The notes below the pieces were generated by a model. It worked only from the letters and a program-made list of their open reading frames with translations. It was not told the origin of the DNA and searched no databases. The translations under genes and the position numbers were made by a program. 64,000 nucleotides of DNA, taken from positions 62,001-126,000 of the forward strand of contig NZ_VFIL01000010.1 in assembly GCF_007858285.1 (NCBI RefSeq), in the 5' to 3' direction. Shown piece after piece: positions 5,459 to 12,126 of the stretch. Position 1 is the first letter of the stretch; every line of letters begins with the position of its first letter. Origin of the DNA: Pseudomonas brenneri (lineage in GTDB: Bacteria; Pseudomonadota; Gammaproteobacteria; Pseudomonadales; Pseudomonadaceae).

Positions 5459-6457
5459 ATGAAGGCATTTTTTATCGACCGCTACGGCAAGCAAAACGGA
5501 ATGATTGGCGAAGTGCCCGACCCTGCGGTCGGTGTGCATGACGTTCTGGTCCAGGTGCATGCAACGAGCGTCAATCCGTTGGACTCGAAGATCAGAACCG
5601 GGGAATTCAAACTGATCCTGCCCTATACCTTTCCATTGGTATTGGGCAATGACCTCGCCGGAGTGGTCGTTAGCACCGGTGCGGCGGTGAAACGATTCAA
5701 GCCGGGCGACGAAGTCTATGCACGCCCTCCCGAGGATCGGATCGGGACGTTTGCCGAACTGATCGCCGTGAACGAAAACGCACTCGCGCTCAAACCCTCG
5801 AACCTTGACATGGCCCAAGCGGCATCCGTCCCCTTGGCCGCCTTGACGGCCTGGCAGGCGCTGGTTGAGACCGCCCAGGTGAAAAAAGGCCAGAAGGTGT
5901 TGATTCATGCCGGATCTGGCGGTGTCGGCACGTTTGCCATCCAGCTCGCCAAACACCTCGGCGCCTTCGTTGCAACGACCACCAGCACGGCGAATGTCGA
6001 ATGGGTGAAGGCGCTCGGGGCGGATGTGGTCATCGACTACAAGAAGCAAGATTTTACAAGCCAATTACACGACTTCGACGTGGTGTTGAACAGCCTGGGC
6101 AACGATGTACTGATGAAATCAGTCGAGGTTCTCAAGCCCGACGGACAGCTCATTTCCCTCTCTGGGCCACCGACAGCAGCGTTCGCAAAGGAGCAAGGCT
6201 TGTCCTGGATGCTCAGGCAAGTCATGCGCCTGCTGAGCAGCGGTATTCGTAGAAAAGCCCGCAAGCATGGGGTGAGCTATGCATTTTTGTTTATGCGTGC
6301 CGACGGGATACAACTGCAAAAAATCACCTCGCTTATCGAAGCGGGCGTCATCAAACCGGTCATCGATCGTTCCTTCCCCTTTGAATCGACTGCTGAGGCG
6401 TTGCGATACGTCGAGCAGGGTAGATCAAAAGGCAAAGTCACCTTAACAATCAAATAA
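5459..6457 (+). CDS. MDR family NADP-dependent oxidoreductase (quinone oxidoreductase type)
   Basis: A 332-residue zinc-independent medium-chain dehydrogenase/reductase. The N-terminal GroES-like domain carries GNDLAGVV. The nucleotide-binding motif HAGSGGVGTFAIQLAK is at about residues 150-165, and the sequence ends VEQGRSKGKVTL, typical of quinone/enone reductases. No structural-zinc cysteine cluster is present. I chose the ATG at 5459, where homology to the family begins (MKAFFIDRYG); the frame is open back to a TTG at 5387. It probably closes the OYE-SDR-hydrolase run, consistent with reduction of quinones or unsaturated carbonyls. Confidence 0.88.
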   Translation: MKAFFIDRYGKQNGMIGEVPDPAVGVHDVLVQVHATSVNPLDSKIRTGEFKLILPYTFPLVLGNDLAGVVVSTGAAVKRFKPGDEVYARPPEDRIGTFAELIAVNENALALKPSNLDMAQAASVPLAALTAWQALVETAQVKKGQKVLIHAGSGGVGTFAIQLAKHLGAFVATTTSTANVEWVKALGADVVIDYKKQDFTSQLHDFDVVLNSLGNDVLMKSVEVLKPDGQLISLSGPPTAAFAKEQGLSWMLRQVMRLLSSGIRRKARKHGVSYAFLFMRADGIQLQKITSLIEAGVIKPVIDRSFPFESTAEALRYVEQGRSKGKVTLTIK

Positions 6458-6608
6458 ACGCACGCCAAAAAATGTCCGTCGATAACGTACATGCCGTCAA
6501 GCATCACATTCCAGCGCCTGAACCAGAGGTCAGCAGTGAACCCGAATGGCGTGCATCGGGCTCAGGCCAATACCGCCGGCCGGATCGATTTGTCCGTGGC
6601 CTTGCCAC

Positions 6609-6842
6609 CTAGGGCAAGACGGCCTTCTTGAAGATCGGTTCGCTGTGCAGCACCCGAACCCCTTCCGGGCCGCTTTCAAGCAGCCGGCGCTCGCCATCGG
6701 CGACCTGGAACTCAATGTCGTAACCGGCATCCGCCAGGCAGCGTGCGATGTCTTGCACGGCGTCGAGCGCCCAGGGGGTGGCGGATTCGAAATGCCCTGC
6801 CAGCCGGTTGTTGCGGCTAACCATCAGTCGGTATCTATTCAT
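6609..6842 (-). CDS. Small conserved-looking protein of unknown function in the thioredoxin/Rof operon
   Basis: A 77-residue protein starting MNRYRLMVSRNNRLAGHFES, with a GAGAGAACAGG stretch directly before the ATG. I do not recognise a domain. It is soluble, acidic to neutral, has no signal peptide and contains one cysteine. It lies 10 bases after the Rho-binding antiterminator gene and in the same direction, so it is very likely the last gene of a three-gene operon with the thioredoxin-like gene. The tight spacing and good ribosome site make a real gene more likely than a chance frame. Confidence 0.6.
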   Translation of the reverse strand: MNRYRLMVSRNNRLAGHFESATPWALDAVQDIARCLADAGYDIEFQVADGERRLLESGPEGVRVLHSEPIFKKAVLP

Positions 6843-6852
6843 CCTGTTCTCT

Positions 6853-7113
6853 CTATGTCAGCTCGATACGGCCGAAACGGGCATTATCGTCGAGCGGGGT
6901 AATGGCCAGCAATTGGTCAAGACGCACCTCGAACTGGCCGCTGTCGCTGCACAGTACGAGAAACTCTTCCTTGCTTGTCGCGGTACGCGTAGTCAGCGCC
7001 CTGGCTGCGTAGCTGCGCCCGTCGATCAGTTCAACCTGCAGGCGGTAGCCGTGCAGGCAGGCGATCTCCAGGTAATCGTGCACATCGCAGTTCAGGGGCT
7101 GATACGCGTTCAT
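6853..7113 (-). CDS. rof: Rho-binding antiterminator (Rof/YaeO family)
   Basis: An 86-residue protein opening MNAYQPLNCDVHDYLEIACL. It matches the Rof family pattern (Y-Q-P-I/L-N-C-D followed by LE-A-C). Rof is a small Sm-like protein that binds Rho, blocks its RNA site and reduces Rho-dependent termination. The length agrees with E. coli Rof. The gene is the middle member of a reverse-strand operon, 25 bases after a thioredoxin-like gene. Co-expression with a redox protein under a cysteine-bearing MarR regulator suggests stress-tuned antitermination, which is inference. Confidence 0.85.
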   Translation of the reverse strand: MNAYQPLNCDVHDYLEIACLHGYRLQVELIDGRSYAARALTTRTATSKEEFLVLCSDSGQFEVRLDQLLAITPLDDNARFGRIELT

Positions 7114-7138
7114 GGTGGTTCTCCTGGCTGGCAGCGCC

Positions 7139-7369
7139 TTACTTCAGATCGTCAATGGAGGCACCAAAATTCAGGTGTAGCACCTGGCCGTCGTGAACAA
7201 ACGCCGGGACCGACTTGACCCCGACCAGTTCGGCTTCGGCGATGCGCTGGGGTTGTTCGCCAAGGTGGACGACCTCGACCTTGAGTGCCGGGTCCAGCAG
7301 GTTGAGCAGGGTCTGTTCGGCAGAAACACAGACAGAGCAGCCGGCATGGTAGAAGCGTGCAGTGGACAT
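7139..7369 (-). CDS. Thioredoxin-fold (glutaredoxin-like) small redox protein
   Basis: A 76-residue thioredoxin-fold protein. The active-site pair is Cys11 and Cys14 (AGCSVCVSAEQ), and the cis-proline motif VKSVPAFV is near residue 55, both as expected for a minimal thioredoxin or glutaredoxin-like protein. It begins the reverse-strand operon that continues into rof. Its promoter region holds two palindromes shared with the divergent MarR gene, so it is probably repressed by that regulator. Its partner protein is unknown. Confidence 0.85.
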   Translation of the reverse strand: MSTARFYHAGCSVCVSAEQTLLNLLDPALKVEVVHLGEQPQRIAEAELVGVKSVPAFVHDGQVLHLNFGASIDDLK

Positions 7370-7392
7370 TTTGAGTCTCCTTCATTCAATTA

Positions 7393-7407
7393 GTATCGAA
7401 TCGATAC
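7393..7407. promoter_or_regulatory. Palindromic operator candidate 1 in the MarR divergon
   Basis: GTATCGAATCGATAC is a 15-base palindrome around a central A. It sits 24 bases upstream of the thioredoxin-like gene start and shares the GTAT/ATAC half-site pattern with the second palindrome at 7445-7465. It is probably a MarR binding site. Confidence 0.65.
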
Positions 7408-7444
7408 CTAAACAAGAATTGCGCGCATCTTGGCGTTTGTCAAT

Positions 7445-7465
7445 ATAGTATTTAGTCGATACTAT
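7445..7465. promoter_or_regulatory. Palindromic operator candidate 2 in the MarR divergon
   Basis: ATAGTAT and ATACTAT form perfect 7-base inverted arms around a 7-base spacer, 19 bases upstream of the chosen marR start. With the palindrome at 7393-7407 it makes a two-site divergent promoter, consistent with autoregulation. Confidence 0.65.
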
Positions 7466-7484
7466 GTGTCGACAGGAGCGACTT

Positions 7485-8054
7485 ATGTCCGACACCACCC
7501 TTTTTGATCTGCTTGAAAGGCTCGCCAGCCTCAGCCGCATCTGGTTCCGCCAGCACCCGCTGCTGGCCGAATTGCAACCCATCCAGTTGAGCGCGCTGAT
7601 GTACCTGGCACGCTGCAACCGCTACTCCAATACGCCGTTGGGCGTGACGGACTACCTGGGCCTGACCAAAGGCACGGTGTCGCAGTCGCTCAAGGCGCTG
7701 GAGGCCAAGGGGCTGATCGTCAAGACCCAGGATGCGCACGACAAGCGCAGCGTTCACCTGCAGTTGACGGACACCGCGCGCAGCCTGCTGGACGCGTTGT
7801 TGCCACCGCACTTCCTCGCCGCAGGTGAGGCGCGGATGGGCGTGCGCGGCCTGCAACTGGAGACACTGCTGGGCGAGTTGCTGCGCGAAGTGCAGCGCAG
7901 CGCGGATGTGCCCAGTTTCGGTCTGTGCAGCACCTGTCGCTTCCATCAGCAGGTTAATAACCAGCCGTTTTGCGGCCTGACCCAGGAGCCCCTGGCGCCG
8001 AGCGATGCCGCATTGATCTGTCGTGAACATCAAACACCGGAGGTCCCTGCATGA
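7485..8054 (+). CDS. MarR family regulator with a C-terminal four-cysteine tail
   Basis: A 189-residue winged-helix MarR protein. The DNA-binding part runs about 34-96 (LTKGTVSQSLKALEAKGLI, then the wing DAHDKRSVHLQLT). After the dimerisation helices the protein adds an unusual tail with Cys148, Cys151, Cys163 and Cys179, plus His154 and His182. The spacing C-x2-C-x11-C-x15-C could bind zinc or an iron-sulfur cluster. I chose the ATG at 7485 because AGGAGCGACTT precedes it; an in-frame ATG at 7464 lies inside a palindrome. The stop overlaps the MOSC gene start by 4 bases, so the two are translationally coupled. Confidence 0.88.
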   Translation: MSDTTLFDLLERLASLSRIWFRQHPLLAELQPIQLSALMYLARCNRYSNTPLGVTDYLGLTKGTVSQSLKALEAKGLIVKTQDAHDKRSVHLQLTDTARSLLDALLPPHFLAAGEARMGVRGLQLETLLGELLREVQRSADVPSFGLCSTCRFHQQVNNQPFCGLTQEPLAPSDAALICREHQTPEVPA

Positions 8055-8737
8055 GCCTGCCCACTATTTGCCTCGACACCCTGCTCACCGGCCGCGCGCA
8101 GCCTTTCACCCGCCCAGGCACCCAAAGCGCCATCGACAAACAGCCGCGACACGGCCAACTGAAGGTCGCAACCCTAGGCCTTCACGGCGACGAACAGGGC
8201 GACCTGCGCGTGCATGGCGGGGTGGAAAAAGCCATTCACCACTACCCGCTTGAGCACTACGCCCGCTGGGCCGACGAATTGGGCGCTCATCCCTTGCTGA
8301 TGCAGCCGGGGGCCTTTGGCGAGAACTTCAGTACCACCGGCTGGAGCGAGCATGACGTGTGCCTGGGTGATCGCATTCAGGCCGGGACGGCATTGCTTGA
8401 GGTGTCCCAGGGACGCATGCCGTGCTGGAAGCTCAGCGACCGCTTCGCCGTGGCCAACCTGGCCTTGCGCGTGCAGCAGTCGGGGCGCACCGGCTGGTAC
8501 TACCGGGTGCTGGAGGAAGGCGTGGTGAGCGCGGGCGATCGCCTGCAACTGGTCGAACGGCCCTTTGCCGACTGGTCACTGGCACGCTTGTCCGCCGTGC
8601 TGTTCGACAAGCGAGTGGAGACCGAGCTGTTGCGCGAATGCCTGGCGCTGCCGTTGGTGCCATCATGGCGGCGTACGCTGGAACGGCGCCTGGAAAAAGG
8701 CATGACCGAGGACTGGGGCCCGCGCCTGCAAGGCTGA
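8051..8737 (+). CDS. MOSC domain protein (YiiM-like)
   Basis: A 228-residue protein of the MOSC superfamily, the C-terminal domain of Moco sulfurases and of stand-alone YiiM proteins that detoxify N-hydroxylated compounds. The conserved features are HGDEQGDLRVHGG (46-57), the GAFGENFSTTG core (88-97) and Cys125 in GRMPCWKL, the expected functional cysteine. It overlaps the MarR gene by 4 bases and is presumably co-expressed. Its sulfur or metal chemistry fits a neighbourhood with a cysteine-rich regulator and a thioredoxin-like protein. Confidence 0.88.
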   Translation: MSLPTICLDTLLTGRAQPFTRPGTQSAIDKQPRHGQLKVATLGLHGDEQGDLRVHGGVEKAIHHYPLEHYARWADELGAHPLLMQPGAFGENFSTTGWSEHDVCLGDRIQAGTALLEVSQGRMPCWKLSDRFAVANLALRVQQSGRTGWYYRVLEEGVVSAGDRLQLVERPFADWSLARLSAVLFDKRVETELLRECLALPLVPSWRRTLERRLEKGMTEDWGPRLQG

Positions 8738-8792
8738 GCGCCCCCCTATAGGAGCTGATATCATCCCCGCATCAACGCGCTGAGTAGAAAGC

Positions 8793-8960
8793 ATGAACCG
8801 TCGTAAGAAACTCAATCAGATTTTGAAAAAAAACGCCCAAAAGGCCAATGCCAAACTGGCCCCCAAAAGCAAAGACAAGTACATCAGCAAGGCCGATCGT
8901 TTGAAGCTGGAAGCACAACCCGCGCCGGACGCAACGATTTCCCCTGACACGCCCAACTGA
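8793..8960 (+). CDS. DUF2986 family small basic protein
   Basis: Hand translation gives 55 residues beginning MNRRKKLNQILKKNAQKANA and continuing with KYISKADRLKLE. This matches the short, lysine-rich DUF2986 family found across gamma-proteobacteria. The function is unknown; the strong positive charge suggests RNA or nucleic-acid contact. The gene lies 55 bases after the MOSC gene on the same strand. The ribosome site is weak (GAGTAGAAAGC before the ATG). Confidence 0.82.
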   Translation: MNRRKKLNQILKKNAQKANAKLAPKSKDKYISKADRLKLEAQPAPDATISPDTPN

Positions 8961-11403: not shown

Positions 11404-11616
11404 CTGCTGTTCCTTTTCACGGCACCACTGACATGGGTGCCGGCGGCGCATGATGCGCGGTGATCGGCGCAGGGTAAAGCACTAAACCCAACGCACATTG
11501 AGCATCACAAACCCCAACTGCACCCAGCCCACCAGCACCCAGTGGGTCAGTTGCAGGCCCTCCTGAGTGGTAGGCAAAGAAAGCGGTTGCAGCAAAGAAC
11601 GGGCGGGACTATAAAA

Positions 11617-11634
11617 CCTCAACTTAACCTGAGG
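11617..11634. promoter_or_regulatory. SoxR-box operator upstream of soxR
   Basis: CCTCAACTTAACCTGAGG closely matches the SoxR consensus CCTCAAGTTAACTTGAGG. It lies 10 bases before the soxR start codon, which implies autoregulation by SoxR. Confidence 0.8.
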
Positions 11635-11643
11635 ATAACCCCC

Positions 11644-12126
11644 ATGGCAGCAGAAAAGAACCCGGACGGTGTGCGCTCGCTCACCATCGGCGAGGTTGCC
11701 AGACGCAGCGGCGTACCGATCTCCACCCTGCACTTCTATGAGGCCAAGGGTTTGATCGCCAGCACGCGCAACGCCGGCAACCAACGGCGCTTCCCGTCGC
11801 TGGTGCTGCGCAGCATTGCGATCATCAAGGTGGCGCAACGTACCGGGATCCCCCTGGAAGAAATCAAGCGCGCCATGAGCCGCTATCCACCGAACAGCAA
11901 ACTGACCGCCGCACAATGGGGGGAAATGTCCTCCGCCTGGCGCGACAACCTCAACGAACGCATCAGAACCCTGGAAGCCTTGCGCGACAGCCTGGACAAC
12001 TGCATTGGTTGCGGCTGCCTGTCGCTTAGCGACTGCCCGTTGCGCAACCCCGGCGATACCTTGAGCCAGGAAGGACCGGGGCCGAGGATCCTCGAACGTG
12101 CCAGCCGGGCGCAACCCACCCTGTAG
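11644..12126 (+). CDS. soxR: Redox-sensitive MerR-family activator SoxR
   Basis: A 160-residue MerR-type regulator. The winged HTH occupies residues 11-60 ([21 protein letters not shown]), followed by the coiled-coil dimerisation helix. The [2Fe-2S] cluster ligands are Cys120, Cys123, Cys125 and Cys131 in the SoxR-specific [19 protein letters not shown]. SoxR senses redox-cycling compounds; in pseudomonads it controls efflux and monooxygenase genes and not soxS. The ATG at 11644 is preceded by a near-perfect SoxR box. The stop codon lies inside a perfect inverted repeat. Confidence 0.96.

Follow-up and report, generated by a model that had tools for sequence, protein, structure and literature searches.

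A putative cysteine-tailed MarR repressor and its operator pair between a MOSC gene and a thioredoxin-like/Rof operon in Pseudomonas brenneri

Introduction

Genes for MarR-family repressors commonly stand in a divergent arrangement with palindromic operators. A related architecture is found in ArnR of Corynebacterium, a [4Fe-4S] protein with a MarR/ArsR-like winged helix-turn-helix (wHTH), and in SufR, in both of which the wHTH is combined with a C-terminal cysteine region that holds an iron-sulfur (Fe-S) cluster (PMC12343034). Here we describe a locus of Pseudomonas brenneri in which a MarR-family gene with a four-cysteine tail is divergent from a gene for a homologue of Rof, the Rho-binding antiterminator. 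The locus lies in a 64,000-nt stretch of contig NZ_VFIL01000010.1 (positions 62,001 to 126,000, catalogued as G000:C1:62001-126000 within a genome of 5.99 Mb) that is referred to as the window. An original prediction, made from the letters of the window by a model, had put this regulator at the centre of a switch linking redox sensing to antitermination.

Rof has been studied in Escherichia coli, where the exchanges Y13A and D14A abolish binding to Rho in size-exclusion chromatography, and Said et al. hypothesised that Rof silences Rho under stress conditions yet to be identified (PMC11018626). The genomic contexts of rof were reported to differ between Enterobacteriaceae and Vibrionaceae, and the word Pseudomonas does not occur in that text (PMC11018626). 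What Rof does physiologically as a host factor was, according to PMC11018607, unknown before that study. In Pseudomonas fluorescens Pf0-1 a soil-induced fusion is antisense to Pfl01_3287, a Rho-binding antiterminator (PMC3646685), and a Rho-binding antiterminator appears in a table of E. coli proteins (PMC9927464). Among the open-access matches listed, judged by title and the start of the abstract, no paper was recognised that deals with control of Rof by a MarR protein or with the tail described below.

Results

Repressor, operators and operon form a unit whose conservation is well supported by sequence comparison. A MarR-MOSC gene pair is divergent from an operon of thioredoxin-like, Rof and 77-aa genes, with 115 bp between the two first genes (Table 1). 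Two palindromes with perfect 7-nt arms, at 7393-7399/7401-7407 and 7445-7451/7459-7465, fall into this interval where the original prediction had placed them, and are named O1 and O2. They are 82% identical over 17 nt and have the half site TCGATAC in common. In the whole P. brenneri genome exact matches to GTATNNANTCGATAC were found at O1 and O2 only. Allowing one mismatch added 7 further places, as compared to 2 for the reversed control pattern. A wide regulon is therefore unsupported, the exact sites being confined to this locus and the 7 one-mismatch places not having been inspected.

Conservation of both sites was evaluated in the best 80 loci out of 359 confirmed MarR relatives, a sample that consequently leans to close relatives of the window. 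Within the upstream 130 of the 200 nt preceding marR, the 14-position O1 consensus was matched at 11 or more positions in 78 of 80 loci (14 positions in 43 loci, 13 in 19, 12 in 14, 11 in 2, 10 in 1 and 8 in 1), and in the remaining 70 nt the O2 consensus was matched at 12–14 of 14 positions in every locus. When the full 200 nt were searched, the best match to the O1 consensus reached at least 11 positions in all 80 loci, three of these matches lying at the place of O2, whereas no more than 8 positions were reached in first-order Markov resamples of these regions. TTGTCAA, which contains the marR -35, was found in 75 of 80 regions, invariably 11 nt before O2, and in 1 of 3702 random 110-nt pieces from the same loci. 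The end of O2 coincides with TACTAT in 74 loci, and the spacing between O1 and O2 is 51–56 nt in 76. The marR promoter was one of 2 sites returned by a promoter scan of 6400-8900, for which 0.5 sites were expected. Since the bases of the marR -35 read TTGACA, the consensus -35, on the other strand, the two divergent promoters would overlap at this element, and O1 would be situated 8–22 nt downstream of a weak putative -10, AATTCT.

The regulator scores above the Pfam cut-offs for MarR_2 (45.7 bits, cut-off 27) and MarR (29.2 bits, cut-off 24.6). Its AlphaFold2 model has a mean predicted local distance difference test (pLDDT) of 82, with block values of 68–83 for residues 141-180 and 53 beyond. 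In a fold search with this model the 50 PDB matches listed were MarR-type and covered 129–150 columns of the 189 residues (TMq 0.42–0.57), and the 60 PDB sequence matches listed end at residue 138 or earlier. What follows is the non-canonical tail, with C148, C151, C163 and C179 when numbered from the ATG at 7485, just as first proposed. The four cysteines are kept in 80 of 80 relatives, in 79 by regular expression and in L118 by reading its tail, where the histidine that follows them is replaced by phenylalanine. Histidines had been named as part of the tail as well, but the one after the last cysteine lies outside the conserved core: the residue three past that cysteine varies between H, F, W and Q, with F, W and Q found in distant tails and Y in one Pseudomonas. 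The predicted beta hairpin begins after the second tail cysteine and ends on the third. A profile of the tail alone matched 15 of 398 genomes of the phylum in 10 of 212 genera, the P. brenneri genome included, and 16 of the 17 matches, the window among them, have all four cysteines, the 17th being partial. A comparison of the tail to PDB sequences gave no meaningful match. In the genus sample of 149 genomes, P. brenneri included, MarR orthologues of at least 66% identity and nearly full length were found in 15, and among the matches listed the closest MarR from a named genome, at 95% identity, is that of Pseudomonas gessardii. One genome of this sample (G005, L024:1501-1767) carries a MarR remnant of roughly the last 90 residues, with the DNA-binding part gone and the fourth tail cysteine lost, as expected of decay.

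Divergent gene chains in the 80 loci were built from five gene families, leaving intervening or later genes of other kinds uncounted. The first divergent gene is thioredoxin-like in 51 loci and a member of a family labelled AHD in 27; of the two remaining loci, one starts with DUF2024 and the other with no recognised gene. Rof is part of the chain in 64 loci. It closes the recognised chain in 53 of them, and in the other 11 a gene of the 77-aa family comes after it. The gap between DUF2024 and Rof has a median of 9 nt. In the genus sample, where Rof is present in 29 of the 149 genomes, it was found in 12 of the 15 genomes that bear the MarR, each time within 1.4 kb of marR, versus 17 of the 134 others. 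Co-occurrence of the regulator with a thioredoxin-like protein and Rof, as anticipated, is thus borne out. The MOSC protein, which had been counted into the same set, does not follow this pattern, a match behind marR being seen in 29 of 80 loci only, even with partial matches such as L041 included. For Rof genes unlinked to MarR (20 of 24 places fetched), flanks of about 3 kb in either direction contained no further module gene at E 1e-4. Isochorismatase-like genes (L045, L052) and catalase genes (L052, L080) were noticed downstream by eye among the loci listed, which is consistent with oxidant stress.

The Rof homologue of the window matches PF07073 with 92.2 bits (cut-off 27.6), is the sole match to this family in its genome and aligns with E. 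coli Rof chains of solved structures. Of 65 MarR-linked Rof rows 64 could be scored, L112 being missed by the pattern, and all 64 keep the equivalents of E. coli Cys10, Asp14 and Glu17. Of 20 unlinked rows, 14 have Tyr and 6 have His at the position of Tyr13. The idea that MarR-linked Rof proteins form a single separate clade was unsupported, as the tree, built on few columns and with bootstrap not settled, needs 8 label changes. Because linked and other Rof sequences are left unseparated in it, Rof may have entered or left the module more than once. Regarding the remaining genes, the MOSC protein matches Pfam MOSC (2.2e-38) and YiiM_3-alpha (7.8e-13), two plasmid records annotate homologues of the thioredoxin-like protein as glutaredoxin domain-containing protein, and Pfam and NCBIfam searches with the 77-aa protein gave no significant match.

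The unit is also found beyond Pseudomonas. In another genus of the same family, thioredoxin-like and Rof genes accompany the MarR in 3 of 3 loci, all with perfect palindromes of ATCGANTCGAT core before marR. Eight of nine Citrobacter loci have MarR, thioredoxin-like protein and Rof, and one has MarR and the thioredoxin-like protein alone. A MarR match was present in 67 plasmid records, 56 of them from Enterobacter. On a conjugative IncHI2A Enterobacter plasmid (one record, L177:6100-14564) Rof, thioredoxin-like and MarR genes are embedded in a long chromosome-like run of genes, and a Lelliottia plasmid has Rof, DUF2024, thioredoxin-like and MarR genes together. An aminoglycoside phosphotransferase gene was observed about 6 kb from the three genes on the Enterobacter plasmid.

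Ten distant loci with a tail-bearing MarR, from 8 genomes, were searched in 12 kb each at E 1e-4, with the MarR of L138 and L143 placed by tblastn and the redoxin query taken from one of the ten (L145). Partners were AHD in 7, redoxin in 5, MOSC in 3 and a thioredoxin-like protein in 1, and on a Phaeobacter plasmid AHD is divergent from MarR-MOSC. An operator scan of seven of these loci (L138, L143 and L146 left out) returned perfect palindromes with the ATCGANTCGAT core before three marR genes (L139, L142 and L144) and no perfect palindrome before the other four. The older core thus looks like a cysteine-tailed MarR together with AHD and thiol proteins.

AHD (L071:3908-4642, minus strand), the most frequent distant partner, is probably a periplasmic family of 245 aa. 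By eye it has a signal peptide followed by His, and a WHSHW stretch (WHAHW in L101), and two of its cysteines do not vary among 26 rows. Members were also found on one Deinococcus plasmid and one Hymenobacter plasmid, and no match was found in the P. brenneri genome. Searches against Pfam, NCBIfam and PDB sequences returned nothing significant, and the AlphaFold2 model is unusable (mean pLDDT 42.5). Copper was considered as a signal on account of the His after the signal peptide. Another neighbour of a distant tail-bearing MarR (L142:6663-7142) resembles, by eye, cytochrome P460, a hint of chemistry on N-oxides or hydroxylamine that would agree with the MOSC partner. In the window itself a gene at 11542-12126 (plus strand), about 3.5 kb from marR, encodes a MerR-type regulator with a motif that resembles SoxR.

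Table 1. Positions in the window of the genes, candidate operators and promoters of the locus.
Feature	Position	Strand	Basis
MarR-family repressor, 189 aa, tail C148-x2-C151-x11-C163-x15-C179	7485-8054	+	Pfam MarR_2, AlphaFold2, PDB fold matches
MarR winged-helix and dimerisation core, residues 1-146 (approximate)	7485-7922	+	Pfam/PDB sequence matches end at or before 138; model
Four-cysteine tail, approximately residues 147-184, with predicted beta hairpin at 154-163	7923-8036	+	Conservation, model
MOSC/YiiM-type protein, 4-nt overlap with the end of marR	8051-8737	+	Pfam MOSC, YiiM_3-alpha
Thioredoxin/glutaredoxin-like protein, 76 aa, CSVC	7139-7369	-	Sub-cut-off Pfam; homologue names
Rof (Rho-binding antiterminator) homologue	6853-7113	-	PF07073
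77-aa protein, next gene past Rof, same strand	6609-6842	-	Homologue in 12/80 loci
Operator O1 GTATCGAATCGATAC (putative), just downstream of proposed divergent -10	7393-7407		Palindrome, conservation, genome scan
Operator O2 (putative), from between -35 and -10 of marR promoter, covering -10	7445-7465; 15-mer 7448-7462		Palindrome, conservation
marR promoter, -35 TTGTCA, -10 TACTAT, spacer 17	-35 7437-7442; -10 7460-7465	+	Promoter scan
Divergent promoter (proposed), -35 TTGACA, weak -10 AATTCT	-35 7438-7443; -10 7420-7415	-	Read from sequence

Discussion

The gene order, the operators, the geometry of the promoters, the conserved cysteines and most Rof contact residues were established by comparing sequences, and from these we infer repression, a bound metal, a signal and inhibition of Rho in this host. 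A dimer of the MarR would repress both divergent units, its own included. Bound to O2 it would cover the -35 and -10 of its own promoter, and bound to O1 it would sit just downstream of the divergent promoter. As the -35 bases are shared, a single repressor complex could silence both promoters. The tail would form a small four-cysteine site, most likely for Zn(II) or an Fe-S cluster, and loss, oxidation or thiol modification of this site would weaken DNA binding. Derepression would then raise the thioredoxin-like thiol protein, Rof and the MOSC protein, and Rof would bind Rho, resulting in less termination during thiol repair. The redox, metal and Rho steps of this scheme are plausible. The model as a whole, from the cysteine-tailed autorepressor and its operator pair through the metal tail and the derepressed thiol, Rof and MOSC genes to inhibition of Rho, is somewhat favoured.

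Several results weigh against it. The proposed divergent promoter was missed by the promoter scan, and the thioredoxin-like protein, in spite of its CxxC, stays under every Pfam cut-off (best 17.8 versus 22 bits). Rows of the tail gave weak Pfam matches to zinc-ribbon and Fe-S families, with a best E of about 0.03. On account of this weakness zinc and Fe-S are indistinguishable, and the site could be purely structural. The corresponding alternative, in which the tail would serve as a structural zinc knuckle to stabilise the dimer and a small molecule (a phenol, a quinone or another electrophile) in the usual MarR pocket would act as the signal, draws on the fold similarity of the core to the ligand-binding MepR and SlyA, on a weak double-zinc-ribbon similarity in 2 of 12 tail rows and on the binding of small ligands by most MarR proteins (PMC5487221). 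It is nevertheless somewhat unlikely, as a cysteine-based sensor would better account for the four invariant cysteines and for the thiol proteins encoded nearby in much of the family. The cysteines might also need no metal and instead form disulfides or become persulfidated, like those of MarR proteins that sense oxidants or sulfane sulfur. A CxxC within the tail next to a thioredoxin-like partner that could reduce it would suit such a mechanism, and sulfane sulfur sensing by MarR proteins is on record in the title of PMC11211675. The spacing and invariance of the four cysteines, and the hairpin predicted between the second and the third of them, nevertheless suggest a metal site, and a metal-free tail is considered distinctly unlikely.

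The remaining points against the model concern Rof, which could be a passenger, or no longer a Rho inhibitor, in what would be a plain thiol-stress operon. The window Rof fails the NCBIfam equivalog for the Rho-binding antiterminator (NF008636, 46.2 versus 117 bits), and the Tyr13 position is His in 59 and Tyr in 5 of the 64 scored MarR-linked rows. Rof is outside the chain in 16 of 80 loci, some of them cut by contig ends (L055, L107). The genus has the 17 genomes with Rof and without this MarR, and a second Rof lies elsewhere in 7 of the 12 genomes that have MarR and Rof. In the tree several unlinked Rof genes fall among linked ones. Finally, none of the 10 distant loci with a tail-bearing MarR yielded a Rof at the threshold and distance given above. 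Antitermination is for this last reason not the core purpose of the regulator. A passenger Rof is all the same unlikely: most of the 80 chains contain it, it stays with MarR and the thioredoxin-like protein in all but one Citrobacter locus and in the Enterobacter and Lelliottia plasmids viewed, and three of the contact residues are kept in every scored row. We infer that Rof joined the module in the Pseudomonadaceae-Enterobacteriaceae branch. The regulated operon would be one for thiol stress, to which Rof was added in Pseudomonadaceae and some Enterobacteriaceae.

A wider and more tentative reading, for which the case is less than even, sees the unit as a mobile module for stress, with a Rho inhibitor gated directly by a MarR tail that carries a metal or an Fe-S cluster. 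Thiol or metal damage would lead to production of Rof, which would in turn lower Rho-dependent termination across the genome and allow transcription of its own operon at full length, the latter being secured because Rof is encoded at or near the promoter-distal end. With its cysteine-tailed repressor and conserved operators, the locus would supply a specific regulator, defined sites and a few candidate signals for the induction of Rof and, if the model is true, a practical way to learn under which conditions bacteria switch Rho off. The MarR family would gain a subgroup with a four-cysteine tail, present in at least two classes of Pseudomonadota, with an operator core common to part of its distant members.

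Compared to described systems, the regulator has the winged-helix core of MarR repressors such as MepR, SlyA and OhrR, and among the PDB sequence and fold matches listed there is no solved relative with a four-cysteine tail. CioR of Chromobacterium was set aside as a relative from its description as a GbsR-type regulator of a cytochrome bd operon (PMC11837568). Like ArnR and SufR, the window MarR combines a wHTH with conserved C-terminal cysteines, but their number and spacing differ from those of ArnR, which has three (179, 193 and 223) in place of four and is almost confined to Actinobacteria (PMC12343034). The MOSC protein has the MOSC and YiiM 3-alpha domains of YiiM, the 6-hydroxyaminopurine reductase, and differs from it in scoring below the NCBIfam equivalog cut-off for that enzyme (173.1 versus 294 bits). 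The window Rof has PF07073 and the equivalents of Cys10, Asp14 and Glu17 in common with E. coli Rof/YaeO, from which MarR-linked Rof proteins differ in mostly having His at the Tyr13 position. While rof of Enterobacteriaceae always overlaps the upstream yaeP (PMC11018626), rof of the window is located behind a conserved operator together with a thiol gene.

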